Below, in pieces: positions 931 through 43,162 of a DNA stretch of 64,000 nt. The DNA is from an uncultured Kordia sp. (GTDB taxonomy: Bacteria; Bacteroidota; Bacteroidia; Flavobacteriales; Flavobacteriaceae), in contig NZ_CANLEA010000025.1 in the NCBI RefSeq assembly GCF_947489565.1, positions 1-64,000 of the forward strand, in the 5' to 3' direction. A program made the position numbers and the translations under genes. The notes under the pieces are model-generated. The model was not told where the DNA came from. It saw nothing but the letters and a program-made list of their open reading frames with translations, and made no database searches. How positions within the stretch are numbered: position 1 is the first letter of the stretch; the number at the start of each line of letters is the position of its first letter.

Positions 931-3900
931 TTAGTATGGCCAGTTTCGTTTTTGCCATGTTTGAAACGATTCGTCAAAACTACGAAAGGTTTGTTCACTT
1001 ACAGGCGCATTTTGTACACCACCTGGAAATTGTTGCATCATCTGAAAATACATGTTTTTTAATCGATAGGCATGACGTAAATTAATGATTGGATAGGGCG
1101 GATCAAAAGAAATCATCCATTGCAATTCTCCCCAAATATTTTGCATAGCCGTTTTACAAATTTCAGTTCCTTGTTGCACATTTCCTGCACGCACATATAA
1201 CTTTCCAATTGCATACGCGTACTGTTCGAAAGGAACCGTTTTATTTGGGAAAATCTTAATACATTTATCTAATACTTCAAGAGCTTTTTTAGTGTTTCCT
1301 TCTTCCAATAAAGCTTGTGCTAAGAAGTAATAATTCTGGCGTAAAATTTCACGTGCATAGGTGACATTTTCATCGCGAATAAAAACGGAATCGTCATGCA
1401 AACCATCAAATTTTACAGTATTCATCACATACGGATACATCATTTCAGTATCTACAATCTTCGGATTTAGTTTTGGATTCTTACGTTGAATAGGCGCCAA
1501 AATATTGACCATACCATGCTGAATTAGATATGGTTCTAAACCGATTGTATGTTGTTTTTTTCCATTGATTACAAAACAAATTGGACGTTCATTAATATTA
1601 TTCATCACCAAGTTCATCAACACAATTTCATTGAGTCCATAAAACTTTTTAGGATGTTGCCAAGTAATAGCAGATGTATAAGAAACATTCAGTTTATTGG
1701 TGTCAAACCACTTTTTGATACGTGTGGTATCAATAGGAAGTGAAAATGAAGTTGATGGAATATAATGTCGCATACGACCATTCCAGTTGGTACGTGTTTC
1801 CTTTTTCTTAAAAAACTCGAACAGAATAGGTAAAACGGCAGCTTCTTTTGTTTCCTCTTGAAGCGGAATCAGTTTTTCAATACCACTCACATAAAAATCT
1901 GGATGAAGATTAAATTTTATAGGTTTTGAATCGTATGAAGCTTTCTTTAAGTTATTTACATGTGTGTCAATATTCAATTGATCATAATTGATGACACGCA
2001 CATCAGTTCGATATCCTTCTACTTGTTGTAAATACCAAAGAGGAAATGTCATATTATCGCCGTTGGTAATTAAAATTGCTTGTTCCGGACAGGCATCTAA
2101 ATAGGCTTTTCCAAAATTATATGCAAAATTATCATGTCCCCGTTGGTGATTGTCCCAACCTTTCGCTAATAATTGTAATGGTGCAGCTAATAATACGATT
2201 CCTGCAATAACACTGGTCCTAATTTTAGGATTTTTAATCGCTGAAGCAGCTTGTGTCAAAAGCACGACAGAAAGTCCAATCCACAAGGCAAAAATGACGA
2301 AAGATCCTATAAAAATATAATCGCGCTCACGGATCAAAATACTTGTAGGAACGGGATTTACATAAATTGTAATTCCAATGCCAAAGGTTAAGAATAGGAG
2401 CAAGGTCATCCAGAAATATTGCTTGTGTTTTCGAAGTGCAATAATGCCTAGAATTCCTAAGATAAATGGTAGAAAATAATATCCATCATTTCCTTTATGA
2501 TTCTTGTAATAGTCAGGAATCACAGCAGTATCTCCAATTCGATTTTTATCCAAAGCATTGATGCCGCTCATCCAATTTCCATCTTTGATATAACCTAAAC
2601 CTTGATGATCGTTTTGTCTTCCAATAAAATTCCAAAATAGATAACGAGCATTCAGCCAAATCACTTGATAATTAATAAAAAAGCTAATATTTTCACCAAA
2701 AGTGGGTTTATTTATGGTGACCATTTCACCGCGCACAGGATAGTTGATAGGTTCTCCATAAATTGTAGTCCAAGCTTTGTACTTATCAGCATCGCCTTTG
2801 TCAAACATACGCGGAAAAAACATGGTAAACTCATCTGAATAATTTACTTCTTTAAGTTTCCCGTCATGTGTAATTTCATATTTCTCTGAGTTCTTATTGT
2901 AATTATAGACTGGTTTTCCATCAACAAAAGCTACATCTTTATCTAAAGGCGCATTGTATACAGGTCCCTTTAACAAAGGAATGGCACCAACGCCAAACTG
3001 CTCTGCACGTACATACTGCAACATTTTATTACTATTTTGCATGCTATCAGCGATCAATAAATTTACATTCGATCGTTGTAGTGGCATAAAAAATGAGCTC
3101 ATTCCGACCAAGAAAAAAATCACACCAAGTGTCGCATGATGAAGTTGAGTTTTGTGTCTTTTTTTAGAAAGAATCAATAGCATAGTTATTGCTACAGCAA
3201 TGAATAGTAATAGGACAATAACTCCTGTATTTAAAGGTGTTTCAAAGGAATTTACGAGCCATATATCTAGTGAATTGGCAAGTTTGATGAGTCCTTGTAC
3301 GATGAATCCGTAAATAATAAAAAAAGCTGCACAACCAAGTATAATAGCAATACAAAACGTTTTCAATGTAAGTCCAAATTTTTTGTGAGCAATAATTACA
3401 GAAAACGGAATTACAATTGCAATCGTGATCAAATGGACACTCGTAGAAATCCCTAACAGTAGCGCAATTAAAAATGCATATCTAATTTCCTTTCTACGAT
3501 TTGTAGTTTTTTCCCATAATAACATTAAATAAATCATTCCGGTCATCAATGCAAAAGACAAAGTGTAAACTTCAGCTTCTGTAGAGGCTGTCCAGAAACT
3601 ATCTGAAAATGCGAGAGTTAATGAAGCAACTATTCCTGAAATAATTGATATTGTAGGTGTGGTATTACTTTTTGTTAAAGAAAGTATCTGGTTGCTGATA
3701 TTTAAAGTGATTCTATATAACAATGTACACGTCAATGCTCCAAAAAATGCAGAAATCAAATTACTGATCAATGCCGCCATACTTGCAGGGAAAAATGATA
3801 GGATAACTTTACATAAAATAGTATAAAAAGGAGCACCTGGCGGATGCGATGCTTGCAAGGTATAATTACTAGCAATAAACTCAGGACTATCCCAGAAAGC

Positions 3901-3984
3901 AATGGTGTTTGGCGCCGAAATTGCATATATTAAAAATATACATTTAAACAGTATCCAGCTACTAAATTTTTCAGCTTTTGGCAT
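931..3984 (-). CDS. DUF2723 membrane protein (GT117-like glycosyltransferase)
   Basis: A 1017-residue polytopic protein with the DUF2723 signature near its N-terminus: an aromatic/acidic stretch (AFWDSPEFIASNY) followed by SHPPGAPFYTI. Roughly a dozen hydrophobic helices span the first 650 residues, then a periplasmic-type soluble region and a TPR-like helical tail (around residues 900-960, ALEVLDKCIKIFPNK). The family is widespread in Bacteroidota and resembles GT-C protein O-mannosyltransferases; the Asp/Glu pair in the first loop is the usual place for catalytic acid residues of GT-C enzymes. The likely role is transfer of a sugar from a polyprenyl carrier at the inner membrane; that is inference from the family. 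The methyltransferase follows immediately downstream. Confidence 0.85.
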   Translation of the reverse strand: MPKAEKFSSWILFKCIFLIYAISAPNTIAFWDSPEFIASNYTLQASHPPGAPFYTILCKVILSFFPASMAALISNLISAFFGALTCTLLYRITLNISNQILSLTKSNTTPTISIISGIVASLTLAFSDSFWTASTEAEVYTLSFALMTGMIYLMLLWEKTTNRRKEIRYAFLIALLLGISTSVHLITIAIVIPFSVIIAHKKFGLTLKTFCIAIILGCAAFFIIYGFIVQGLIKLANSLDIWLVNSFETPLNTGVIVLLLFIAVAITMLLILSKKRHKTQLHHATLGVIFFLVGMSSFFMPLQRSNVNLLIADSMQNSNKMLQYVRAEQFGVGAIPLLKGPVYNAPLDKDVAFVDGKPVYNYNKNSEKYEITHDGKLKEVNYSDEFTMFFPRMFDKGDADKYKAWTTIYGEPINYPVRGEMVTINKPTFGENISFFINYQVIWLNARYLFWNFIGRQNDHQGLGYIKDGNWMSGINALDKNRIGDTAVIPDYYKNHKGNDGYYFLPFILGILGIIALRKHKQYFWMTLLLFLTFGIGITIYVNPVPTSILIRERDYIFIGSFVIFALWIGLSVVLLTQAASAIKNPKIRTSVIAGIVLLAAPLQLLAKGWDNHQRGHDNFAYNFGKAYLDACPEQAILITNGDNMTFPLWYLQQVEGYRTDVRVINYDQLNIDTHVNNLKKASYDSKPIKFNLHPDFYVSGIEKLIPLQEETKEAAVLPILFEFFKKKETRTNWNGRMRHYIPSTSFSLPIDTTRIKKWFDTNKLNVSYTSAITWQHPKKFYGLNEIVLMNLVMNNINERPICFVINGKKQHTIGLEPYLIQHGMVNILAPIQRKNPKLNPKIVDTEMMYPYVMNTVKFDGLHDDSVFIRDENVTYAREILRQNYYFLAQALLEEGNTKKALEVLDKCIKIFPNKTVPFEQYAYAIGKLYVRAGNVQQGTEICKTAMQNIWGELQWMISFDPPYPIINLRHAYRLKNMYFQMMQQFPGGVQNAPVSEQTFRSFDESFQTWQKRNWPY

Positions 3985-4155
3985 GTAGAGTTAGGTTAAT
4001 TTTGATTGCAATATAATAGAATTATTCAATCTAAAAACTACCATCTATAAATAAAAAAGTACTGACGATACATATTTTTAGAAAACACGTATATCTACGG
4101 GGAAATCTTAATGATTAGTTAATTATTTTTGGCTATATGTTAAAATTAAATTCTT

Positions 4156-4163
4156 TATATTTG
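4156..4163 (+). promoter_or_regulatory. Putative Bacteroidota -7 box TATATTTG
   Basis: Matches the TAnnTTTG consensus 38 bases before the ATG of the large surface protein gene at 4202. The nearest upstream TTG (4129-4131) gives a 24-base spacer, longer than usual, so only the -7 box is convincing. Confidence 0.5.
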
Positions 4164-4201
4164 GCATAACCATATAAAATAAACTAAACATCAATTCTAT
4201 T

Positions 4202-7159
4202 ATGAGAAAACAATTACCCCTCGTAGTTGTGTTTCTCCTGTGTATATTAGGGCTCACAGGAATGCAAGCACAAACTTTGAATGAGACTATGGGTACTGGT
4301 TCCGGAGTAAGTATATCTTCGGGAGACTTCAACACATTTTATGGAGATAGTACAGGTAGTTTTATTACCTCAGGATCAAGAGTAACACTATTTGGATATA
4401 GTGCAGGACGAAGCGTTACTACAAGTGAGTTAGTAGCGATTGGATATCTTGCAGGATACTCAAATACTACTGGTTTTGACAATACGTTTATCGGATACGA
4501 AGCAGGTCGTTTGACCATCAACGGTGGAGATAACACCTTCATCGGAGCTGAATCTGGAGAAAACAATACTACTGGTTATGACAATACATTCGTCGGAGAA
4601 GAATCAGGAGCAAACAACACCACTGGTTACGAAAACACCTTCATCGGAGAAGATGCAGGTTTTAGCAACACTACAGGTTATAAACAAACATTCGTAGGAA
4701 ACGAAGTAGGTATTTCTTCTGATGTAGGTTACCGAAATACGGGTGTTGGTAGTGAATCTATGAGTGATGTAGATGATGGTCACCACAACTCTGCTTTTGG
4801 AGATTCAGCAGGTATTGATGTTGGAGACGGTATATACAATACATTTGTCGGAGCTGCTTCTGGTGTGGCTACAGAATGGGCAGATTATAACACATTCGTT
4901 GGAGCACAATCTGGTTGGGACAACAACCGTACAAATAATACATCTAATGCAAACCACAATACATATGTAGGATTCTCAGCTGGTTTTACAAACCGTGAAG
5001 GTCAGTACAATGTAGGTATGGGATCGTTGGCAGATTTTGATAATACTAATAGGTCAAATACGATGTTCTTCGGGTATAATATTACCGCAAGTAATAATAA
5101 CGTAATGGGATTTGGTAACGATTCGTTTATAGACGGACAGTACTCAATCTCTATGGGTATTGATCACGATATTCGTGGAGATTACTCTGTTATGATGGGA
5201 TATTTAGGAAATATGGGAACGCTAGCTGATTACTCAGTTGGTATTGGTGATCGTGTAAATGTGGCAGAAAATGATGCCGTTGGTATCGGACGTTCTGTAG
5301 ATGTTGATAATCAATATGCAATTGCAATTGGTTCAACTACAATAGCACAAAACGATGGAGCTATTGTTATGGGATATCAAGCTTCTTCTACAGATCCAAG
5401 TGCTTTAGATCCTACAAATAACATTGCTATTGGTAATGCTGCAAATGTACAAGGAACAAACGCAGTTGCTATTGGTAATGCAGCAACAGCAGTCAATGAC
5501 AATACAATGGTACTTGGTGGAGCAACAAATCCATTAAGTGTGGGTATTGGTACAGATACACCAAATGCAAACGCAGCTTTAGATTTAACAGGAACGGCTA
5601 AAGGTTTACACTTAAACCGTATGACAACCGCGCAACGTACAGCGTTTGGAAGCTCATTAGGAGCAACTGATGAAGGTATGGTGGTTTATGATACAGAAAC
5701 TGATAATTCATTCTATTGGGATGGAACACAGTGGAAAGGTATGATGGACACTGATACTGATACACAAGATTTATCATTGGTTACAAATACATTAAGCTTA
5801 ACAGATGGTGGATCAGTAGATTTAACTCCATATTTAGATAATACAGATGCACAGGCAATTTCTGTAGCTTCTGACATTTTAAGTATTACTGGAGATGCTG
5901 GAACAGTAGATTTATCACCGTATTTAGACAATACAGATGGACAGGCAATTTCTGTTTCTAGTGATATATTAAGTATTACAGGAGATGCTGGAACAGTAGA
6001 TTTATCACCATATTTAGACAATACAGACAGTCAAGAATTATCTGTAGCAGCAAATGTGTTAAGTATTTCTGGTGGTATGACAACTGTTGATCTTTCTGGC
6101 TATTTAGATAACACAGATAGTCAAGATTTATCTTTAATGGGAACTACCTTAAATATTAGCGGAGGAACTGGAGTTGATTTAGCTTCTTTACAAGATGGAA
6201 CAGGAACTGATAGCCAAGACCTATCTTTAATGGGAACTACCTTAAATATTAGTGGAGGAACTGGTGTTGATTTAGCTTCTTTACAAGATGGAACTGGTAC
6301 AGATGCACAAGCAATTTCTTTGGCTACTAATACCTTAAGCATTACTGGAAATGCTTCAACGGTAGATTTATCTGGATATTTAGATAATACTGATAGCCAA
6401 GACTTATCTTTAATGGGAACTACGTTAAATATTTCTGGAGGAACTGGAGTTGATTTAGCTTCTTTACAAGATGGAACTGGTACAGATGCACAGGCAATTT
6501 CTTTGGCTACAAACACATTAAGTATTACAGGAAATGCTTCTACAGTTGACTTATCAGGATATTTAGATAACACAGATAGTCAAAACTTATCATTAGCAGG
6601 ATCAACCTTAAATATCTCTGGAGGAACTGGAGTTGATTTATCTACTTTAGCAGATGGAACAGGAACAGATGATCAGGATTTAACTTCTGCTACATTATCT
6701 GGAAGTACATTAACAGTTGCTATTGAAGGTGGAGCTTCTGTAGACGTTGATTTATCTCCAATTTTAGGAGCGTTAGAAGCAGAAAATACTGCACAGCAAG
6801 CACAGATTGATGACTTACTTACAAGAGTAGCTGCCATTGAAGTATGTGCGTGTGACGGAACGTTATCTGTAGTAACTCCTGACAATGCATCAAGAAGTGG
6901 AGCGATTTTATATCAAAACATTCCAAATCCTTTCAATGATACTTCATCTATCCGTTATTTCATTCCACAAGAATTAACTGGAGATGCTGCTATTGTATTT
7001 GTAAATACTGCTGGACAAGTAATTTCTACAGTAGATTTACCACAAAAAGGAGATCAGGAATTAGATATCAATACAAGATCATTATCTTCAGGTATGTACT
7101 ATTACACATTATATGTTGATGGTAAAAAAGTTGATACTAAGAAAATGATTATTGAATAA
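4202..7159 (+). CDS. Large repeat-built T9SS surface protein (adhesin-like)
   Basis: A 985-residue secreted protein. A signal peptide (residues 1-24, ending MQAQ) is followed by head-like repeats of about 17 residues with the pattern GYxNTFxGExxG (roughly residues 85-190), and then more divergent VAIG/VGIG-type repeats that recall trimeric adhesin heads. A VGIGTDTP/KGLHLNRMTTAQRT segment, common in phage tail-fibre-like Bacteroidota proteins, comes next. Eleven tandem 30-31-residue units follow (about 515-845; patterns LSITGxAxTVDLSxYLDNT and LNISGGTGVDLASLQDGTGT), then a short coiled coil (QQAQIDDLLTRVAAIE). The C-terminus is a type A T9SS sorting domain (IPNPFNDTSSIRYFIP...SGMYYYTLYVDGK). 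Export to the cell surface by T9SS is expected; binding partner unknown. Confidence 0.85.
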   Translation: MRKQLPLVVVFLLCILGLTGMQAQTLNETMGTGSGVSISSGDFNTFYGDSTGSFITSGSRVTLFGYSAGRSVTTSELVAIGYLAGYSNTTGFDNTFIGYEAGRLTINGGDNTFIGAESGENNTTGYDNTFVGEESGANNTTGYENTFIGEDAGFSNTTGYKQTFVGNEVGISSDVGYRNTGVGSESMSDVDDGHHNSAFGDSAGIDVGDGIYNTFVGAASGVATEWADYNTFVGAQSGWDNNRTNNTSNANHNTYVGFSAGFTNREGQYNVGMGSLADFDNTNRSNTMFFGYNITASNNNVMGFGNDSFIDGQYSISMGIDHDIRGDYSVMMGYLGNMGTLADYSVGIGDRVNVAENDAVGIGRSVDVDNQYAIAIGSTTIAQNDGAIVMGYQASSTDPSALDPTNNIAIGNAANVQGTNAVAIGNAATAVNDNTMVLGGATNPLSVGIGTDTPNANAALDLTGTAKGLHLNRMTTAQRTAFGSSLGATDEGMVVYDTETDNSFYWDGTQWKGMMDTDTDTQDLSLVTNTLSLTDGGSVDLTPYLDNTDAQAISVASDILSITGDAGTVDLSPYLDNTDGQAISVSSDILSITGDAGTVDLSPYLDNTDSQELSVAANVLSISGGMTTVDLSGYLDNTDSQDLSLMGTTLNISGGTGVDLASLQDGTGTDSQDLSLMGTTLNISGGTGVDLASLQDGTGTDAQAISLATNTLSITGNASTVDLSGYLDNTDSQDLSLMGTTLNISGGTGVDLASLQDGTGTDAQAISLATNTLSITGNASTVDLSGYLDNTDSQNLSLAGSTLNISGGTGVDLSTLADGTGTDDQDLTSATLSGSTLTVAIEGGASVDVDLSPILGALEAENTAQQAQIDDLLTRVAAIEVCACDGTLSVVTPDNASRSGAILYQNIPNPFNDTSSIRYFIPQELTGDAAIVFVNTAGQVISTVDLPQKGDQELDINTRSLSSGMYYYTLYVDGKKVDTKKMIIE
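4465..4760 (+). repeat. 51-bp tandem coding repeats (head domain)
   Basis: Consecutive 17-codon units encode GYDNTFVGEESGANNTT, GYENTFIGEDAGFSNTT and diverged neighbours. They make up the head-like part of the surface protein. Confidence 0.7.
5752..6720 (+). repeat. 90/93-bp tandem coding repeat array, 11 units
   Basis: Two unit types alternate: a 30-residue type ending VDLSPYLDNT or VDLSGYLDNT and a 31-residue type ending VDLASLQDGTGT. Several copies are nearly identical at DNA level (for example the units around 6115-6300 and 6390-6480), indicating recent duplication or gene conversion. Confidence 0.85.
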
Positions 7160-31141: not shown

Positions 31142-32041
31142 ATGAAAACAACACTACTCTCTATATTAGTTTTGACTTTGATAAGTTGTGATGCTTCTAC
31201 CAAAGAACTTATTGGAAGTTCATGGAAGGTTACGGAACTTAAAACAAACGGAACTATTGCTAAAACCACAAATGATGTGATTTTAACCATTAAAAGTGAA
31301 ACTGATTTTTCACTACAATTGGACAAAAATAATTGTTTTGGAACGTATGCAATCACAGGAAAAAACAACATTAAACTCGAAAGTATAGGCTGTACAGAAA
31401 TGTGTTGCGATTCAGATTTTTCGATGGCTGTTGTGAATGCATTGTATAAAGTTTCCAACATTAATCTTAACAAAGATCGCGTAAGCTTATCTTCAGATGA
31501 GGTTGAAATTAAATTTTTAAAAGTGAAAACTTCATCAGAAAATCAATCTAAAACAATGAATACCAACGAAAAACTTTCAGGAAAAGAAAAAATTCCAACA
31601 GAAGAAACGACGAATGTTGGCATGTTTGAAAATCCAGATAAAACTCAGAATGCAAGTGATGACGTTCCAAAAGGTGATTATATCGAATTGTACAAATCGC
31701 CATGCAAAGGAAATTGTGAAGAGTTTACCATGAAGTTTTACGAAGATGGAACGGTATATTACACAGGGAAATTCAATGCGCAGGTACAAGGAAAACATTC
31801 TGTAAAGTTAACGACAAGCAAATCAAAATCGTTGTTCCAAGACTTTGAACAGTCAAATTTCAGTAGTTATCAAGATAAATATGATGATGAAAAGATTATG
31901 GATATCCAAAATACATACTTAACCTATAAAGGGAAAAAGATTCATATTCGTTACAAATACAATGCGCCAAAAGAATTACAAGCATTACTTGAAAAAGTAG
32001 AAGCACAGGCAAAAGAAGCATTGGAGAAACTGAAGAAGTAA
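31142..32041 (+). CDS. META-like plus DUF6438 lipoprotein
   Basis: 299 residues. Lipobox VLTLISCDAS (Cys 16). Residues about 20-125 resemble a META/HslJ-type domain (IGSSWKVTELKTNG, CFGTYAITGKNNIKL). A polar linker follows, and residues about 175-270 match DUF6438 (IELYKSPCKGNCEEFTMKFYEDGTVYYTGK). A Lys/Glu-rich helix closes the protein. META domains occur in envelope and motility-related proteins, while DUF6438 has no known activity. The gene ends at a strong bidirectional terminator. Confidence 0.78.
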   Translation: MKTTLLSILVLTLISCDASTKELIGSSWKVTELKTNGTIAKTTNDVILTIKSETDFSLQLDKNNCFGTYAITGKNNIKLESIGCTEMCCDSDFSMAVVNALYKVSNINLNKDRVSLSSDEVEIKFLKVKTSSENQSKTMNTNEKLSGKEKIPTEETTNVGMFENPDKTQNASDDVPKGDYIELYKSPCKGNCEEFTMKFYEDGTVYYTGKFNAQVQGKHSVKLTTSKSKSLFQDFEQSNFSSYQDKYDDEKIMDIQNTYLTYKGKKIHIRYKYNAPKELQALLEKVEAQAKEALEKLKK

Positions 32042-35145: not shown

Positions 35146-35787
35146 TTGAGCTTACAAAATAACATACTACAAACCATTCATCACTTACGTACTTCTGGAC
35201 AATTTGTTTTATACACAAACAAGCCCAAAGTAAGTACAAGTGAACTGAATGATTTAGCCGATTTTTTAGAGCAAGAATATGAAAATGAATCACTTAACTA
35301 TCCGTTTGCTGCGCCAGAATTTCATAAAGAAGCGGCAGTTTGGGCAGCAAAAACGATTTACTATGCAGCACAGTTTTTAGCACATCGTATGGAAGAACCG
35401 AAAAATCTTGGGAAGTTTTTTGAAGACTTTAAAGGTGAAATATCGCCATCAGTCATACTTTCTACAGATATCTCACTACGATTTTTGCCATTCATTATCA
35501 AAGAATTAGAACATATTGACTTTGAAGATTGGTTGGTAAAAATCCTTAAAAAACAATTACAAACCTTTTCATATTCTGCAATTGGACACGATATGAACGA
35601 GGAAATTCAAGAAGAAAAACTTGCGAAACTCTTTCAAAATGACTGCTTTCGAACACTATTTACAGACAGAGTCATCGCAAAAAAAGATATCAGTCTTACG
35701 GCACATAAAATCATTCAAGAAAACGTTGCCATTCAATTGGGAGAACATTCCAATCAATTTTGGAGAGCGTTTGTACCTGAAGCATAA
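35146..35787 (+). CDS. First subunit of MoxR-vWA-bpX operon (bpX-type, unknown)
   Basis: 213 residues, all-helical, cytosolic. The start is TTG at 35146: the frame is closed by a TAG at 35101 and has no usable ATG or GTG before the first conserved-looking helix. It contains LNDLADFLEQEYENESLNYPFAAPEFHKEAAVWAAKTIYYAAQFL, a segment with the look of the small helical bpX partner proteins of MoxR-vWA-beta-propeller systems. It ends five bases before the MoxR gene. By position I infer a regulatory or adaptor subunit; the exact bpX family cannot be settled by eye. Confidence 0.7.
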   Translation: MSLQNNILQTIHHLRTSGQFVLYTNKPKVSTSELNDLADFLEQEYENESLNYPFAAPEFHKEAAVWAAKTIYYAAQFLAHRMEEPKNLGKFFEDFKGEISPSVILSTDISLRFLPFIIKELEHIDFEDWLVKILKKQLQTFSYSAIGHDMNEEIQEEKLAKLFQNDCFRTLFTDRVIAKKDISLTAHKIIQENVAIQLGEHSNQFWRAFVPEA

Positions 35788-35792
35788 ATACT

Positions 35793-36926
35793 ATGAACGA
35801 AACACAAAAAATACGAACCATACTCGATGAAATCAAAAATGTCTTTGTTGGAAAAGATGAGGTGATTGATTTGTTGGGAATTGGACTATTAGCAAGAGAA
35901 AATGTATTCCTTTTAGGACCTCCAGGAACGGCAAAAAGTGCCATTGTAAAACAATTGTCGAGTCATGTGATTGGCGGAATTAACTTTGATTATCTCTTAA
36001 CGCGATTCACGGAACCAAACGAAATCTTTGGTCCGCTAGACATTCGATTGTTAAAAGAAGGAGAATTGGTCACCAATACAGACGGAATGCTTCCAGAAGC
36101 TTCTCTAGTATTTTTGGATGAAATTTTCAATGCGAATTCTGCCATATTAAACAGTTTGCTGATGGCGTTGAACGAAAAGATATTTCGTAGAGGAAAAGAA
36201 ACCAAAAAACTACCTGCGTTGATGTTTATCAGTGCAAGTAACCAATTGCCAGAAGATGAAACCTTGGCAGCTTTGTTAGATCGTTTCCTAATCCGATTAA
36301 AAGTAGACAATGTAAAACCCGATCGTTTGGAAGAAGTATTGCAAGCAGGATGGAAGTTAGAACGAAAAGAGAAAACATCACAAACGCAAATCTCTCCAGA
36401 AGAAATCAAAGATTTGCAAAAACAAGTAAAAGAGGTAGACTTAGCGCCGATTCGCAGTTCGTATATTGAGTTAATTCACAGTCTGCGAAATACAGGAATA
36501 GAAGTATCTGACAGACGTGCTGTAAAAATGCAAAACCTAGTCGCAGCAAGTGCCATGTTATGTGATCGTGATGTGGCGATTTTATCAGATTTATGGGTGT
36601 TAAAATATATTTGGAGTACAGAAGAACAAATAGAAACACTGCAAGCAACGGTAAATGCATTGATAGAGAAGGAGCAAACTGAAGCAGCAGTGCATCCGCA
36701 AGCATTTTTCAACAAAGCGCCAAATCCAGAAGAATTGATGAATGAAGTTTCAAACTTGCAACTAAAATTTTCAAATGAAGAAATCTCGTTGCAAGAACTC
36801 AATGTAATCAAAGACAAATTGCGCTATCTGCAAAACAGAACAGATTGGGTAAAAGATCAACAGAAAAAACAATACATAAATACGGAAATTGATCAATTGT
36901 GGAAAGAGATCTTACACAAGGTGTAA
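35793..36926 (+). CDS. MoxR-family AAA+ ATPase
   Basis: 377 residues. Walker A GPPGTAKS (residues 42-49), Walker B VFLDE (106-110), the MoxR insert after helix 2 (FTEPNEIFGPLDI), sensor 1 Asn150 (ISASNQLPED), arginine-finger region LLDRFLIR (near 164), and a C-terminal lid (IEVSDRRAVKMQ) are all intact, so ATP hydrolysis is expected. MoxR ATPases form hexameric rings and act on vWA-domain partners to remodel or mature clients. Here the vWA partner is two genes downstream. The 3' end overlaps the next gene by 28 bases. Confidence 0.93.
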   Translation: MNETQKIRTILDEIKNVFVGKDEVIDLLGIGLLARENVFLLGPPGTAKSAIVKQLSSHVIGGINFDYLLTRFTEPNEIFGPLDIRLLKEGELVTNTDGMLPEASLVFLDEIFNANSAILNSLLMALNEKIFRRGKETKKLPALMFISASNQLPEDETLAALLDRFLIRLKVDNVKPDRLEEVLQAGWKLERKEKTSQTQISPEEIKDLQKQVKEVDLAPIRSSYIELIHSLRNTGIEVSDRRAVKMQNLVAASAMLCDRDVAILSDLWVLKYIWSTEEQIETLQATVNALIEKEQTEAAVHPQAFFNKAPNPEELMNEVSNLQLKFSNEEISLQELNVIKDKLRYLQNRTDWVKDQQKKQYINTEIDQLWKEILHKV

Positions 36927-37624
36927 CCGAATATTGGTTGCGATTGCCTTCAAAATATAAAGAAAAATTAGCGCAAATTCGTGTGTGGAAATCATTGCGA
37001 ATGTCGACTGATATGGACGATATTTGGGTACGCGGAATTGCACCAAGTCAATTAAATAGTCCAGAAATACGTAGCATTCCATTCAAAAAAATATACTTTC
37101 AACATGAAAATGCTTTATTTCTCTTAGGAGGAAATTTACCCGAAGAACGTTTAAAAACATCTTTGCTTTGGTCGCCAATTCACAAAGCATTGCCAGTAGA
37201 AACGCCTGAATATAATTTCAATTTTTTTGAGTTGGATGCAAAAATAGGATTCAATATGGTGCCATCAAGCCAAGAGCGATTGGCAGTTGCACAATTAATT
37301 CCTTTAGATGTACTAGATGAAATAATTCCCAAAATGCCCGCAATTCGCTTACAATGCCTGAATTGGGTTATTATTGAAGACAAGGCTTTGCTCATTGGTT
37401 CACCATTACTTTCCATACCCGGAAAAACCTATTGGCAAAATCAAAACTTTTTGTTGCCAGCAGGATACGATTTTGAACATCCAGAATTGAGTACTTATTT
37501 TAACAAAAAAGTCAATCAAAACGGGAATGACATGATCGTTATGCAAACGGATCATAGCTATTTTAAGATCACAAAAGAAAACATACAAAAACTCACAATC
37601 AGCGGATACCGATTGTCACGATAA
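36899..37624 (+). CDS. bpX-type subunit of MoxR-vWA system
   Basis: 241 residues, cytosolic, mostly beta with a few helices. The start is GTG at 36899, inside the last 28 bases of the MoxR gene; the next in-frame ATG would remove 34 residues including TEYWLRLPSKYKEKL. The C-terminal FLLPAGYDFEHPELSTYF followed by a final ...YRLSR resembles the conserved end of bpX proteins that sit beside MoxR and vWA genes. It has no catalytic motif that I can see. It is separated from the vWA-propeller gene by three bases. Confidence 0.72.
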   Translation: MERDLTQGVTEYWLRLPSKYKEKLAQIRVWKSLRMSTDMDDIWVRGIAPSQLNSPEIRSIPFKKIYFQHENALFLLGGNLPEERLKTSLLWSPIHKALPVETPEYNFNFFELDAKIGFNMVPSSQERLAVAQLIPLDVLDEIIPKMPAIRLQCLNWVIIEDKALLIGSPLLSIPGKTYWQNQNFLLPAGYDFEHPELSTYFNKKVNQNGNDMIVMQTDHSYFKITKENIQKLTISGYRLSR

Positions 37625-37627
37625 CTC

Positions 37628-40021
37628 ATGAACGAAACGCAGTCAAAAGCCATCTATTATTTTCAATCATACCAAAACTATTTTTGGGAATGGGAAGTTG
37701 ACCATATGTTTCACGGAAGTGTAATAGAGAGTGCACAAGATTATCATGGCGGTTACAATTGTATTAGCATTCCCGATGGAATGACCATTGCGTATAAAGA
37801 ACAAATTACGGAAATCTTAAAGTTACTTTCAGACACAGGATTTCCACCATTTGGCGCATTGATCCTCACATTTTTGGCAACAAACTCTGGAGAAGTAAGC
37901 GCTGCCATAAAAGAAATATTTGAGGATATTTTAGAACGACATATAAATTTCCCAGCGGTTGATCATATTGACTTTGCAGCAGCAGAAACATTTTTAAAAA
38001 CCTTAATTGCATTACCATCAGTATATACAAAAGGGAAAAATAGAATTGATTTATTTGTGTTTTTGTTTGAAACGGCAAATCACAGTTTATCTCCAAAATT
38101 CTCAGGAGAAATTTTAGATTTTATAGAAAATCATAGTTTTCAACTCAATCAATGTAGCGTAAAAAAGGAGATGACTGTGACGGCTCTGAGTAAGGATATC
38201 AATGCTTTGGCGTTATTACATCACAGATATCCTACCGTAGATGATTTGTTGACAGCATGGTTTAAAATGACGGAAGTTCCTGTAGATCCTGAAGATACAG
38301 AACTAGAACACTTTAGCGATGATCCAGATTTTATTCAAGAATTGATAGAAGACCCAAAAACGTTCTTTATGGGAAGTTTAATCAAGCGTTTATGGTCTGG
38401 AATTCAATTGCCAATGCATTATGTACATCCTGGAGAAATGCCTTTGGGCGGAATTTCGGATATTACCAACAAAGGAAAGTTTGACAATATTCTGATCTCT
38501 GAATTTGCCAATGACGATTTGATATTTTTACACAGAATAGCCAACAAAGAAGCCTTATTCATTCGCCGAGAAACCACGCCAGAAGAAGATTTACGCACAC
38601 GTATATTTTTAATAGATACGACGATTAAAAACTGGGGAACACCAAAAATATTGTCATTTGCAACAGCTTTTTCATTCATTCATCATCCAAAAAATGAAAT
38701 GAACTTTCAGCCGTATGCTTTAGGGGAAACCTATACGCCGTTGTACTTTGATGCCAAAGAAAAAATTATAAGCGGATTGCAACGTACATCGCCTTTGTTA
38801 GATGCTGCAGCAGCGATTGAACAGTTTATTGAAGAATGTAAAGAAGATACTATAGAAATTACCTTGTTTACAGCAGCTAAAACGCTGGAACATCAAAATA
38901 TAAGACGTTTATTCAACGTACATCATAGCAAATTTGGAGGTGTCATTACATCGGACAGTCAAGGAAATATTGACGTGTATAAAATAAAGCAAGGTTCAAA
39001 ACGCTTGACAAAGCATATTCAATTGCCGTTGGCTGAGTTATGGGCAAATCCACCGAGAAAGAAAAAGTTAAGACCGAAAAAAGATCCAAAAATTGATCCT
39101 AAAGTAATTAACTATCCTTTATTATATGGTTTTCCAACGCGAGGAACCATCAACTTTGCTGACGATACATACGCGTATGTATTACAGAAAAATGGAGATT
39201 TATTCCGTGCCGAAAGTCATAAAAAAGGGTTCAGAATGATCAAGCGTGACATTCGATTTGTGACAGGAATTAAGCAAAACAAATTAGCAGCCATGTACGA
39301 AGATGAGTTGATGATAGTGTATTGGACGACAGATCATCACATGATTTTTAAAACGACTTCGATGACCTGTAGTTATAAGTCAGATCTGTCAAAATATGAA
39401 AAAGCTGTTTTCAAACATCTCATCATTTATGACGAAAGTCTGTTTCTAGTGACCAAGAAATATTACAGTGACGAACCTTTATTTACCTATTTTGATTTTG
39501 ATGATTATAGTTACTTTGATGTAGACAATCCAAATTCTGAACTCAAAAGAACATATCAAGCATATCTAAAAAATCAAGCCACTTATTTTGAAGGTTCGGT
39601 GTTTACTAAAATCAACGCAATAACCATTACCAAAGATTTAGAAATTGTATTCAATCATAAACACCGTTTAGACCTTATTGGAGAAACGGGTTATTTTGAA
39701 ATGATTGATAGAGAAGCCGCTGGTTTGGATGAAGAATTTACCAAGCATCTTCACAAGCGAAATCAACGATTAGAATACATAGAAGGAAGTGTCATTACGA
39801 TCGATAAAAATGGTATTATTACTTTTAAAAGTGGCAATCCAAACATTCCAACATTTTACCTGTCATCCTACATTGGGATTGGAATAGGGATTGCAACTGA
39901 CGAAGAATTTGCTGGAAACGATTATTTTAAACCTGAAGACGCATCGCTGAAAAAAATAAAAGTATTTGAATTTGATGCAAAATACATGGAACCTTTCTTA
40001 GAACACATACTAAACACATGA
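37628..40021 (+). CDS. Fused bpX - vWA - beta-propeller protein
   Basis: 797 residues. Residues 1-260 form a helical domain rich in Trp and acidic residues (YFWEWEVDHMFHGSVIE). Residues about 268-440 match the vWA of MoxR-vWA-beta-propeller systems: GGISDITNKGKFDNILISEFANDDLIFLHRIANKEALFIRRE, then the MIDAS strand RIFLIDTTIKNWGTPK. The canonical MIDAS DxSxS is changed to DTTIK (residues 330-334), so metal binding is doubtful. Residues 435-797 are repeated beta-strand blocks (GGVITSDSQGNIDVYK, TYAYVLQKNGDLFRAES, MYEDELMIVYW) consistent with a propeller. Its stop overlaps the next start (ATGA). Confidence 0.78.
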   Translation: MNETQSKAIYYFQSYQNYFWEWEVDHMFHGSVIESAQDYHGGYNCISIPDGMTIAYKEQITEILKLLSDTGFPPFGALILTFLATNSGEVSAAIKEIFEDILERHINFPAVDHIDFAAAETFLKTLIALPSVYTKGKNRIDLFVFLFETANHSLSPKFSGEILDFIENHSFQLNQCSVKKEMTVTALSKDINALALLHHRYPTVDDLLTAWFKMTEVPVDPEDTELEHFSDDPDFIQELIEDPKTFFMGSLIKRLWSGIQLPMHYVHPGEMPLGGISDITNKGKFDNILISEFANDDLIFLHRIANKEALFIRRETTPEEDLRTRIFLIDTTIKNWGTPKILSFATAFSFIHHPKNEMNFQPYALGETYTPLYFDAKEKIISGLQRTSPLLDAAAAIEQFIEECKEDTIEITLFTAAKTLEHQNIRRLFNVHHSKFGGVITSDSQGNIDVYKIKQGSKRLTKHIQLPLAELWANPPRKKKLRPKKDPKIDPKVINYPLLYGFPTRGTINFADDTYAYVLQKNGDLFRAESHKKGFRMIKRDIRFVTGIKQNKLAAMYEDELMIVYWTTDHHMIFKTTSMTCSYKSDLSKYEKAVFKHLIIYDESLFLVTKKYYSDEPLFTYFDFDDYSYFDVDNPNSELKRTYQAYLKNQATYFEGSVFTKINAITITKDLEIVFNHKHRLDLIGETGYFEMIDREAAGLDEEFTKHLHKRNQRLEYIEGSVITIDKNGIITFKSGNPNIPTFYLSSYIGIGIGIATDEEFAGNDYFKPEDASLKKIKVFEFDAKYMEPFLEHILNT

Positions 40022-41457
40022 AGTTAGCATTACAACATACCGATAACAGTCCGTACGCACGTTGCGGAATCTTTATCAAGCATGCTTCGCCAAAAGTATG
40101 GTTGGAAGAAATTACGCGGATGCAACTAAAGCTTTCAGAATGCAGATTATATCCATGTCCGGGAACGGAAGCAAATAGCATTTCGGGTGTTTTAATCATT
40201 TTTAAAACGGAACAGAAAAAAATAGATACGCATGCGAATGTATGTGTGCAAAAAGTTCAAACGGGCTTTTATATTCCTGAAAACACAAAGCTGAATATGG
40301 CGCTGACACAGGAAGAATTCACAAAATTATTGCAAGGAAAACCACATTTCTTTCATCATCAATATGGTTTGATAGAGCTGATCTCGGAAGTGCAATGGGA
40401 AACGATTATTCAAGTGCCTAAAGAACAATTTCCAGCAATAGAAACACCTGCAAAAGGCGTCAACATTCCAATGGAAGTCACAGCGTTTAGTGTAGAAATT
40501 GAAGAAAAAGAAACCGAAACAACGCTCGAAAACCCGTTTAGTGGTCAAGAAGTAAATCCGGAAGATTTGCCTTTTGATATGAAAAAAGTACTACAAGGGA
40601 ACAACAAAGAAGTTGATAAATACTTAAGATACTTAGAAAAAAATCCAGAAGCCGCTTTAAAAATGGCAGTGCCGTTGGATATGATGGGAACTTCTCGCGG
40701 GAAAGCCTTTGCGAAGTATAAATTTAAAAGTAATTTCTTTGATAAAATTGGATTTGGAGATGTTTCTGAAGGAACAAAAACAAAGTTCAAAACAATCGTT
40801 GGAATCTTGGCAATCATTGCTATTTTTTGGGTTGGATACTATGTTGTTGATCAACACAAAAAACAACAAATAGAAGTAGTAAGAGGAAAAACACAAGTGC
40901 GTTCTCAAAACGGTACAGAGTTAACGAATGAGGATATTGTTGACGTAAACAATGAACTAGATTCAGAAACCTTGCTTACAGAAACAGAAATCAACGATTT
41001 TAACAATACTAGAAGAACAAGCAACAAAAATAGAGTAGCAGAAGAAACCGCCGACAACTATCTCACTAATGGTTTCATCATTTTTATAGCGCTTGTATTT
41101 GGATTTATTTTGTTTGGATATTTAATCACATCAAGAAAAAAAGTACGTTCAAAATCACAACCGCAAAATGATAATAAACCAAGTTCTTGGATGGATTTAC
41201 CAGAAGAAAGCGAAGTATTCTCTTTTACAGATGAAGAAGCATCACGTGGCTCTAATTTTTATTTTGGAGGAAACGAATTATCGGCACAAAGCAAAGTACT
41301 CATTGTATTCATACTCATTGCTTTGTTGGCGTATCTTTTCTATCCAATGTTAACGACGCCAGGCATAGGAACCGTATTTTTTATCATGACTATTTTTATT
41401 GTGATTCGACTTTTATATTTATTAATCAGTAAAAATAAAACCATTCTAGATGACTAA
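40018..41457 (+). CDS. bpX-type subunit with C-terminal membrane anchor
   Basis: 479 residues. The first ~165 residues form a compact cytosolic domain (LALQHTDNSPYARCGIFIKHASPKVWL...CRLYPCPGTEANSISGVLIIF). A helical region follows with KYLRYLEKNPEAALKMAVPLDMMG. Four hydrophobic helices come next, near residues 261-280, 345-367, 423-440 and 447-467, separated by polar loops. It therefore tethers the complex to the inner membrane. The domain arrangement fits a membrane-linked partner of the MoxR-vWA pair. It overlaps the preceding gene by four bases and the next by eight. Confidence 0.75.
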   Translation: MKLALQHTDNSPYARCGIFIKHASPKVWLEEITRMQLKLSECRLYPCPGTEANSISGVLIIFKTEQKKIDTHANVCVQKVQTGFYIPENTKLNMALTQEEFTKLLQGKPHFFHHQYGLIELISEVQWETIIQVPKEQFPAIETPAKGVNIPMEVTAFSVEIEEKETETTLENPFSGQEVNPEDLPFDMKKVLQGNNKEVDKYLRYLEKNPEAALKMAVPLDMMGTSRGKAFAKYKFKSNFFDKIGFGDVSEGTKTKFKTIVGILAIIAIFWVGYYVVDQHKKQQIEVVRGKTQVRSQNGTELTNEDIVDVNNELDSETLLTETEINDFNNTRRTSNKNRVAEETADNYLTNGFIIFIALVFGFILFGYLITSRKKVRSKSQPQNDNKPSSWMDLPEESEVFSFTDEEASRGSNFYFGGNELSAQSKVLIVFILIALLAYLFYPMLTTPGIGTVFFIMTIFIVIRLLYLLISKNKTILDD

Positions 41458-42451
41458 CACACAAGGAAGTAAGTTTCACGCAAAGCTGATGTACTTCATG
41501 ATCTTTGTGTTATTCTTAAAATTTATATATCTCATTATAACCTCTATAGTTGCAGGTGATTTTCCAAGCTTTTTATTTGGAATCATCATACTTGGAATCG
41601 TGTTTTTTGTGCTTTCCTATATGATAAATTCATTGTTTGGAGAAACATTATCTAACAGAGATGGAGCAGGAGGAAGAACTTCTACCATTGGCGATAATCA
41701 GTTCAATAGTCTGATGCAGCGTTATGAAAAACTCACAGACGAATTCATAGAAAAAAAGCAATACAAAAAGGCAGCCTACATTCAACTAAAATTATTGCGA
41801 AACCCATACAGAGCGGCTAATATTTTAAAAGAAGGACATTTGTATAATGAGGCAGCACACATCTATCTAAAAAAATGCCATCGAAAAGAAGATGCTGCGG
41901 AATGCTATGAACTTGCACGTTCGTACACAAAATCTATCAAACTCTACAAAGAGTTGGAAATGAACGAAAAAGTAGGTGATATTTACTCAAAAATAAAAGA
42001 TACAGAGAAAGCGCATCATCATTACCAAATTGTAGTGGACGATTATGTAAAAAACTATCAATACGTAAAAGCGTCATTGATGTTTCGTAAAAAAATGGAC
42101 AACATACCAGCAGCCAATGAATTATTGCTACAAGGTTGGACAGATAATAAAGATGCGGTGAATTGTGCTAATAACTACTTTGCCAATTTCAAAGACAAAG
42201 AAAGATTGCAACAAGAACTCAATGAATTCAAAGAAAACCGTGTAAGTAAAGCAAACGAACGGAATTTCCTAAAAGCATTAACCTACGAATACAATAAAGA
42301 CATTGCACCAAAAGAAGACGTGCAAAAAATGGCGTATGAATTAATCTCAAAAAATAGTCAAAACGATGAAATGATGTCGTTGCTAAAACATTTTGTAAAT
42401 GACGATATGCAATTAACCAAAGACGTCTTGCGACACAAAACCAAGCGATAG
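41450..42451 (+). CDS. Membrane-anchored alpha-solenoid subunit
   Basis: 333 residues. Two N-terminal transmembrane helices (residues about 12-33 and 38-62) are followed by a long cytosolic helical array with a TPR/coatomer-like rhythm (YKKAAYIQLKLLRNPYRAANILKEGHLYNEAAHIYLKKCHRKEDAAECYELAR). The repeat pattern continues to about residue 240. It is the last gene of the bpX operon. An alpha-solenoid scaffold that docks the MoxR-vWA machine at the membrane is a reasonable inference; no catalytic motif is seen. Confidence 0.75.
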   Translation: MTNTQGSKFHAKLMYFMIFVLFLKFIYLIITSIVAGDFPSFLFGIIILGIVFFVLSYMINSLFGETLSNRDGAGGRTSTIGDNQFNSLMQRYEKLTDEFIEKKQYKKAAYIQLKLLRNPYRAANILKEGHLYNEAAHIYLKKCHRKEDAAECYELARSYTKSIKLYKELEMNEKVGDIYSKIKDTEKAHHHYQIVVDDYVKNYQYVKASLMFRKKMDNIPAANELLLQGWTDNKDAVNCANNYFANFKDKERLQQELNEFKENRVSKANERNFLKALTYEYNKDIAPKEDVQKMAYELISKNSQNDEMMSLLKHFVNDDMQLTKDVLRHKTKR

Positions 42452-42559: not shown

Positions 42560-42590
42560 AAAAAGCGACTCTCAAAAGTCGCTTTTTCAA
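42560..42590. terminator. Bidirectional terminator
   Basis: Inverted repeat AAAAAGCGACT (42560-42570) / AGTCGCTTTTT (42577-42587). It closes the bpX operon from one side and the TPR membrane-protein gene from the other. Confidence 0.9.
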
Positions 42591-42595
42591 TTTTG

Positions 42596-43162
42596 TTATC
42601 TTCTTCGCATATTCTGACGATTGCCATAATGTTGTTTTGGAGCACTAGAAGCACGTTTCATTTGCTGCTCCATCATTTTAATCTGTTCAGAGAGCATTCC
42701 ACGTTTATCCAAAGCCTTAGCTTCCTTCATTAAGTTCTTAGCTTCATTCTTACGGTTCTTCTGCGCTGCAATGCCTGCTAGGGTCATTTTTACCATTGCC
42801 ATGTCGTGAGACATGCTTAAACCGAGTTTCTCCGCTTTGCGTAAATGTTTCTCTGCTTGTGTCAAATTACTTTGCGAAGCCATAATTCCGTGTAGGTAAT
42901 AATAATATCCTTGTTGCTTTCTTGTCAAAGCAGTTGCCGGATTCTTAATTCTTCCTAAAATACGTTTGGCACCATCAAAATCTTGTTTACGTAACTTTAA
43001 GAATGACAATAAGATAAATTCGTTCTTAAAGTAAAATAAAACAAAAATGGCTGCCAATAAAATTAAAAAGATTCCATTACCTATTTCTCCATCGTAAAAT
43101 TGGTAAATTGCGTAGGCAAAAATTCCTCCCGCTATAATGAGTTTGATATTTTTGTTGAACAT
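42596..43162 (-). CDS. TPR-containing membrane protein of unknown function
   Basis: 188 residues. Two transmembrane helices (residues about 7-22 and 29-47) are followed by a short TPR-like region (KQQGYYYYLHGIMASQSNLTQAEKHLRKAEKLGL...AGIAAQKNRKNEAKNLMKEAKALDKRG). The C-terminal tail is basic and ends NRQNMRRR. No catalytic motif is visible. It is transcribed divergently from rpmH and convergently with the bpX operon. Confidence 0.72.
   Translation of the reverse strand: MFNKNIKLIIAGGIFAYAIYQFYDGEIGNGIFLILLAAIFVLFYFKNEFILLSFLKLRKQDFDGAKRILGRIKNPATALTRKQQGYYYYLHGIMASQSNLTQAEKHLRKAEKLGLSMSHDMAMVKMTLAGIAAQKNRKNEAKNLMKEAKALDKRGMLSEQIKMMEQQMKRASSAPKQHYGNRQNMRRR

Follow-up and report, generated by a model that had tools for sequence, protein, structure and literature searches.

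A MoxR-vWA-propeller operon of Kordia with a split third component and a candidate client of its own

What does the MoxR-class ATPase of a six-gene Kordia operon act on? The operon lies in a stretch of 64,000 nucleotides from an uncultured Kordia sp. (contig NZ_CANLEA010000025.1, positions 1 to 64,000; hereafter the window), where six co-directional open reading frames (ORFs) fill positions 35146-42451 of the plus strand; two of their junctions are gaps of 5 and 3 bases, and at the other three the frames overlap by 28, 4 and 8. It encodes a MoxR-vWA-beta-propeller (bp) system whose third component is divided between two genes and carries predicted membrane helices. We propose, giving the idea about an even chance, that the operon makes a MoxR-vWA remodelling machine together with its own dedicated client.

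Six genes and a split third component

Pfam profiles place genes 1 to 5 in the bp families. Gene 1 (35146..35787, plus strand like all operon features below; 213 amino acids (aa), TTG start as called) is a bpX4 protein (1.3e-72). Gene 2 (35793..36926, 377 aa) is a bpMoxR AAA+ ATPase (3.9e-102, 340 bits), and its GPPGTAKS P-loop and LDEIF Walker B motif are invariant in all 14 aligned sequences. Gene 3 (36899..37624, 241 aa), which accounts for the 28-base overlap with gene 2, is a bpX2 protein (4.3e-78), and gene 4 (37628..40021, 797 aa) matches bpX0 at residues 51-209 (8.8e-37) and bpX1 at 714-794 (1.7e-17). Gene 5 (40018..41457, 479 aa) starts with a bpX3 head (1.8e-37, residues 2-172), followed by a stalk and four predicted membrane segments. 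Gene 6 (41450..42451, 333 aa) has no significant Pfam family (best E 0.6); hydropathy and hhalign give it two membrane segments and a SNAP/TPR-like alpha-solenoid. An earlier note, made from the letters alone, had described this arrangement and named the system; both stand, and the profile search found the bpX families and bpMoxR that it expected, but neither Pfam nor NCBIfam matched a vWA domain in gene 4. On the six proteins NCBIfam gave nothing beyond a sub-threshold RavA match of gene 2 (195 bits, cut-off 681). RavA chains were the sole PDB sequence matches of gene 2 at 1e-10, making RavA its nearest solved relative; in PDB profile searches bpX2 matched nothing up to E 5, and bpX4 only at E 0.4 and 2.6.

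The arrangement recurs in relatives. We surveyed 80 named loci out of 508 relatives, found by MoxR patterns, so that the counts are not frequencies in nature. The complete order bpX4-MoxR-bpX2-gene 4-bpX3-solenoid, all co-directional, is present in 70 of them: 49 have five genes, with bpX3 and solenoid in one ORF, and 21 have six, one with gene 4 interrupted. The 10 partial loci lack one or more components, and eight of these lie near contig ends (L158 and L172 do not). Of the 76 named loci that have both genes, 48 even share the 28-base overlap between MoxR and bpX2. Because gene order is conserved in 70 of 80 loci, chance is excluded, and the conserved neighbourhood on which the earlier note depended is borne out. 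Two loci have further peculiarities: in L098 (7687-10077; L058 is an unnamed copy), the nearest relative and a Kordia metagenome-assembled genome (MAG), gene 4 is interrupted into pieces of 582 and 193 aa, and in L141 an AAA-ATPase_like/PDDEXK_9 gene (3784-5490) sits between bpX2 and gene 4.

How do the five- and six-gene forms correspond? Judged by alignment, genes 5 and 6 jointly match a protein that 49 of the 70 full-set loci encode as a single chain. Gene 5 and the single-chain form have in common the bpX3 head and a stalk of the pattern NPExAxKxAxPLD...SRG, and residues 72-333 of gene 6 align with the complete solenoid of the single chains at an hhalign probability of 100. By hydropathy, the membrane segments fall at residues 255-279, 347-373, 419-450 and 451-473 of gene 5 and at 9-39 and 40-65 of gene 6, so that the four-plus-two helices and the solenoid of the earlier note both hold. 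These helices are located where the single-chain model has a flexible linker (residues 282-318, with a predicted local distance difference test score, pLDDT, below 50 over nearly all of it).

Is the anchor a general property of the system? Junction hydropathy stays below 1.9, i.e. without a membrane helix, in 28 of the 50 single-chain proteins (1.86 in L165, at most 1.34 in the other 27). It reaches 2.04 in L167, at residue 193 and outside the linker, and ranges from 2.3 to 3.75 in the remaining 21, which come from Flavobacteriaceae and Emticicia. With 28 of 50 homologues lacking a junction helix, the anchor is lineage-specific, and the membrane tethering that had been read as part of the system is true of Kordia but not general. 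We mapped both characters on a quick unrooted tree of the four other operon proteins (73 of 83 sets, those with all four proteins; long branches, and support from the Shimodaira-Hasegawa-like approximate likelihood-ratio test only). Split versus single chain requires three changes there and membrane versus none two, each of them either a gain or a loss.

The third component also ends differently from the published description, which typically gives it a C-terminal propeller (Kaur 2020, PMC7159879). Gene 6 stops with the solenoid. Among the 71 solenoid proteins of the named loci, 21 split genes encode 332-348 aa and 50 single chains have 560-631 aa, L160 excepted (785 aa, with a PAP2 extension); these lengths leave no room for a propeller after the solenoid, again excepting L160. 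The operon is thus complete, as the earlier note had it, in that all bp families are present, but not in this propeller. A form on a Hymenobacter plasmid continues for about 326 residues beyond the solenoid, a tail that would be the propeller by analogy with Kaur 2020; its membrane segment (216-252) precedes the stalk match (313-345), the reverse of the Kordia order of stalk and helices. In L160 (8630-10984, a MAG) the single-chain protein is extended by a signal-like segment and then a PAP2 phosphatase domain, an extension that may be an assembly or sequencing artefact. For the solenoid fold itself, alpha-SNAP was the best Foldseek match of gene 6, though a weak one; profiles favoured WDR19/IFT144 (2.2e-5) over alpha-SNAP (about 0.9), and Pfam SNAP scored 0.025 in one homologue.

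Constant motor and stalk, variable recognition parts

Within Kordia, the operon proteins combine constant and variable parts (regional identities, with gaps not scored as mismatches and the shortened L058 gene 4 excluded). MoxR is 91% identical, residues 251-350 of gene 4 are 94% identical and the stalk of gene 5 (residues 185-236, 40570..40725) 85%. The propeller of gene 4 is only 44-45% identical, and a hypervariable loop of gene 5 (residues 280-346, 40855..41055), predicted to be periplasmic from hydropathy and from the charge pattern judged by eye, 17-22%. Ratios of nonsynonymous to synonymous substitution rates (dN/dS, NG86 method, five pairs) are 0.03-0.05 for MoxR, 0.14-0.26 for gene 5 and at most 0.26 for every gene. 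The regional maximum, 0.47, falls in the gene 5 loop, which together with the membrane part of gene 5 is least constrained; residues 714-797 gave no usable value for the window/L058 pair (2 codons). Gene averages thus show, on this estimate, purifying selection throughout, and no positive selection was found at gene or region level by a method that is rough here, dS being near or above 1 in many comparisons.

The stalk, a candidate handle, has an unusual distribution. This 52-residue segment has no second convincing copy in its own genome (next match E 0.93), and in six further genomes it found a strong match in just the two that bear the operon (best of the rest E 0.05). It is retained in single-chain and split forms and in soluble and membrane forms alike. 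Because the stalk is constant, kept across these forms and without another convincing genomic copy, the client is more likely to be encoded by the operon itself, in genes 5 and 6.

Which protein would couple the motor to such a client? Known MoxR-vWA pairs act on a target as a ring with a vWA adaptor (NorQD, PMC9976466; CbbQO, PMC4660213). In the NorQD pair, the vWA subunit acts as a plug of the MoxR ring and is considered to contact the target through its metal-ion-dependent adhesion site (MIDAS), a DxSxS-T-D motif in NorD (PMC9976466); the MIDAS of the CbbQO pair binds an acidic residue on the surface of rubisco (PMC4660213). By analogy with these pairs, gene 2 and gene 4 would be motor and adaptor. 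The AlphaFold model of gene 4 (58 sequences; mean pLDDT 83.2, predicted template modelling score 0.45) has a helical domain and a Rossmann-like domain (324-446), with a stretch of low confidence (261-319) between them, and numerous strands that reach to residue 763. Foldseek placed integrin alphaX first (E 8e-5, TM-score 0.13), followed mostly by propeller proteins and more integrins. Integrin alpha chains join a vWA domain and a propeller. A vWA-like domain at residues 319-446 (38582..38965) is therefore supported by the model, by the integrin matches and by an invariant D-x-S/T motif; the bpX-vWA-propeller fusion proposed earlier has its bpX0 and bpX1 from Pfam, and its vWA and propeller parts from the model and Foldseek. 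The propeller strands and bpX1 occupy residues 447-797 (38966..40018), a variable region whose residues 501-713 gave the identity quoted above. Directly before the vWA-like domain, residues 251-318 (38378..38581) form a candidate docking segment with invariant columns and low model confidence (pLDDT below 50 at 261-299 and 301-319).

The MIDAS of gene 4 is altered to D330-x-T332-x-K334. Across the 58 sequences, D330 and S/T332 are invariant (58/58 each), position 334 is Lys in 51 and Arg in 4, and the later Thr and Asp positions, assigned from the alignment and the model strands, are not conserved as such. Gene 4 thus lacks the intact DxSxS-T-D of vWA partners of the RavA-ViaA, NorQD and CbbQO type, and the replacement of the MIDAS serine by Lys or Arg suggests metal-free binding.

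What mechanism would these parts make? We infer a ring of gene 2 ATPase coupled to gene 4. The vWA region of gene 4, with the invariant segment before it, would dock on the motor, the variable propeller face would serve for recognition, and bpX2 and bpX4 would be fixed accessory subunits. The client would be the bpX3-stalk-solenoid module, divided in Kordia between genes 5 and 6 and held by six helices at the cytosolic side of the inner membrane. ATP hydrolysis would pull or reshape this module by way of its conserved stalk and so move it between a resting and an active state, in a physiological role that may lie in envelope stress or in conflict. A more specific version, which we regard as rather doubtful, is that the machine grips its client without a MIDAS metal: Lys or Arg would replace the metal and pair with an acidic partner residue, such as one in the gene 5 stalk, and the client would be soluble in many lineages, a membrane protein in others through helices at the stalk-solenoid linker, and encoded by separate genes for its two halves in three lineages.

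Several points weigh against the proposed machine with its dedicated client. Co-conservation cannot tell a client subunit from an adaptor, and the stalk could be a contact between subunits instead of a pulled handle. The vWA domain depends on a model with low Foldseek TM-scores, the highest-ranked match having the value quoted above, and the highly conserved segment before it is the one modelled with low confidence. A flank gene that does not belong to the operon (window 31142-32041) is equally variable, 58% identical among 5 Kordia sequences, so that moderate variability alone is not special. Literature searches on the family names and on MoxR-vWA, propeller, anti-phage, Kordia and Bacteroidetes found no experimental study of a bp system; the vWA systems close to CRISPR in PMC10910872 are VMAP systems and were not drawn on.

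Conflict, housekeeping and the Kordia site

Could the operon instead be an anti-phage or other conflict system? Its variable parts would then sense infection, MoxR-vWA would set the threshold and the membrane proteins would be the effector, for example by opening the membrane, a scheme that we rate as possible, though on the improbable side. A conflict role is the published prediction (Kaur 2020, PMC7159879), and the operon is very patchy. In our sample, bpMoxR exceeds 330 bits in 4 of 299 family genomes (its own, one more Kordia and two other genera), the next score, 62 bits, being at the level of ordinary MoxR; bpX2 was found in 10 of 395 genomes drawn from the phylum (171 genera, own included) and in 0 of 14 controls. 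Transfer points the same way, with a copy from Glaciecola (Gammaproteobacteria) among the Bacteroidota copies of the operon tree and another on the Hymenobacter plasmid. So do the variable gene 5 loop and propeller, the variable site of the operon in Kordia (below), and the genes for Endonuclease V-like, PD-(D/E)XK, FRG or reverse transcriptase proteins that lie next to or inside some copies. However, bpX2 is present in 10 of 11 Kordia genomes and the operon keeps the same site in 9 of 10. Only 1 of 72,556 plasmid records holds a close operon (Hymenobacter, MoxR 52% identical), and matches from phages (21 MoxR/RavA-type in phage records, at most 42% identity) and viral contigs (8 MoxR, at most 38%) are distant. 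Regional dN/dS never indicates diversifying selection at that level, the operon has no recognisable effector domain, and no PADLOC model fits it: in PADLOC 2.0.0 five of the six proteins had no match at E 1, and MoxR matched one CARF-AAA model weakly, over its AAA part (5.3e-5). A phage-defence role is thus an unproven prediction, and several of these results count against a mobile defence module.

The window's own 6.4-Mb genome has five AAA_3-like matches; for bpMoxR the window MoxR scores 342 bits and the next match listed there 56. A MoxR scan of named genomes gave Kordia species at 89-97% identity, and Kordia algicida OT-1 is a carrier of the operon. The Pfam cut-off of bpMoxR (PF20030, 27 bits) is passed by ordinary MoxR in 12 of 14 control genomes and 297 of 299 family genomes, so annotation by cut-off overcounts bp systems and the score gap serves as the test instead. 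Row L134 of the operon tree, from a MAG labelled Williamsia (Actinomycetota), falls among Bacteroidota; it is likely a misbinned contig, and nothing is drawn from it.

In Kordia the operon occupies one variable site; it is present in 10 of 11 genomes, and the site is empty in G301. In nine of the ten genomes that bear it, the operon has an SLT-domain (MltD-like) gene on one side and, on the other, a small gene whose TPR matches are sub-threshold; in one of the nine (G305) the contig holds just a piece of the SLT gene, and in the tenth (G302) the operon is on a 7.8-kb contig. The distance from flank to flank is 7.6 to 27 kb with the operon and 1.14 kb in G301, a single-contig genome. A carB tree pairs operon-less G301 with operon-bearing G299 (100/99), whereas the operon tree nests G299 inside Kordia. 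This conflict rules out vertical inheritance alone, and at least one loss or exchange must therefore have occurred within the genus. Several Kordia carry extra cargo at the site: hybrid histidine kinases with divergent secreted-protein pairs, an AraC/TPR protein, an acyltransferase, a beta-lactamase-family protein and an ankyrin protein. Nine cargo proteins were scanned with PADLOC for defence models. The ankyrin-repeat protein matched the candidate-defence model PDC-M72A (1.4e-17), plus an Ankyrin model, which favours the conflict role, but it was the single match among the nine. The long kinase units beside divergent secreted-looking proteins occur in L089-L092 and L095 (one kinase Pfam-tested); G299 has two units, and G303 two kinases with three protein pairs. 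In the empty site of G301 (L094) lie two small minus-strand ORFs (5556-5750 and 6054-6257). They start with MKKKSLKSLALNKKSIS and MKKKHLKGLALNKKSVS, the end of the second is rich in cysteine, and both look like precursors of ribosomally synthesized and post-translationally modified peptides (RiPPs), a class of peptide natural products.

A second alternative, which we consider unlikely, is a housekeeping chaperone for the assembly or repair of an inner-membrane complex in the manner of RavA-ViaA or NorQD, with genes 5 and 6 as docking platform and the client elsewhere. It agrees with the kinship to RavA, the purifying selection on gene averages, the near-constant presence in Kordia and the membrane segments of this genus. 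Within single genera metabolic genes also recur next to the operon. Of the Flavobacterium-type loci 11 have an AMP-binding enzyme there, and 7 Chryseobacterium loci have a phosphorylase (one member of each tested); genes of NrtR/NUDIX and of nicotinamide phosphoribosyltransferase type each recur in at least three loci. Yet the operon is absent from almost all sampled family genomes and from G301, and is therefore not essential. The 28 single-chain homologues without a membrane helix also speak against a membrane chaperone, and the listed neighbour families that recur in at least three genus-level labels included no gene recognised as respiratory or as part of a membrane complex. A link to the upstream RNase_T-family exonuclease of Flavobacterium (17 loci) was rejected, as the exonuclease is also present in 6 of 10 same-genus genomes without bpX2 and lies on another contig in operon-bearing G629.

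Other neighbours were seen in individual loci. Genes resembling RNA ligase, exonuclease, phosphoesterase and Endonuclease V lie next to the operon and bring an RNA-repair module to mind. The Endonuclease V-like family occurs in 7 loci (4 of them Flavobacterium; three members Pfam-confirmed), within 4 bases of the operon in four: 1 to 4 bases behind it in L131 (15084-15581) and in front of it in L149 (6546-7055), L155 (7831-8331) and L154. The NrtR/NUDIX and nicotinamide phosphoribosyltransferase-type genes lie near the operon in L136 (7324-8013), L160 (12009-13481) and L167, the NrtR gene of L136 ending 2 bases ahead of bpX4; such a pairing of NAD metabolism with a predicted conflict system may merit attention. 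A reverse transcriptase gene lies 186 bases upstream of the operon in L145 (152-1660), and an FRG-domain gene 350 bases upstream in L105 (6572-8014, not Kordia), whose protein matches twelve PADLOC PDC-S15 models (best 2e-11). Downstream of the window operon, a terminator-like hairpin (42560..42588, both strands) lies between gene 6 and a convergent gene (42596-43162); the region has 7 such sites against a shuffle mean of 5.5, so the scan alone is not significant. Scans of the window for Rfam families and tRNAs gave no match.

Relation to known systems

Is this a new system? The earlier note had ranked the operon as a candidate for an undescribed one, and this was not borne out: Kaur 2020 (PMC7159879) predicted it as vWA-MoxR subsystem 4. 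The operon shares with that ternary system a bpMoxR with the GXXXTAKS P-loop, a vWA component with bpX0 before and propeller/bpX1 after it in one chain (vWA and propeller by model and Foldseek), bpX2, bpX4, and a bpX3-membrane-TPR third component, here spread over genes 5 and 6. It differs in having this component in two genes, with 4+2 predicted membrane helices and no C-terminal propeller. Sections 21 and 22 of Kaur 2020 state neither the split nor the series of soluble and membrane forms. The operon is thus of a known, predicted kind, to which our analysis adds the split third component, the lineage-specific anchor, the altered MIDAS, the conserved stalk and the variable Kordia site.

As far as the literature searches show, bp systems are known from sequence alone. 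The split, membrane-anchored form amounts to a natural dissection that sets a constant motor and stalk apart from variable recognition parts and singles out one gene pair as the likely client. With K. algicida OT-1 as carrier strain and a Kordia genome with an empty site, the target of a MoxR-vWA-propeller machine becomes directly testable.

Comparison with better-known machines places the operon among MoxR-class ATPases that adjoin a vWA partner gene, as in RavA-ViaA, NorQ-NorD and CbbQ-CbbO. Unlike these, it has DxS/TxK in place of the DxSxS-T-D of NorD, without conservation of the later Thr and Asp, and adds a propeller, bpX0-4 and membrane subunits. An AAA+ motor with an alpha-SNAP-like solenoid, by a weak fold match, also recalls NSF and alpha-SNAP; NSF belongs to another AAA+ clade, and we claim resemblance rather than membership.

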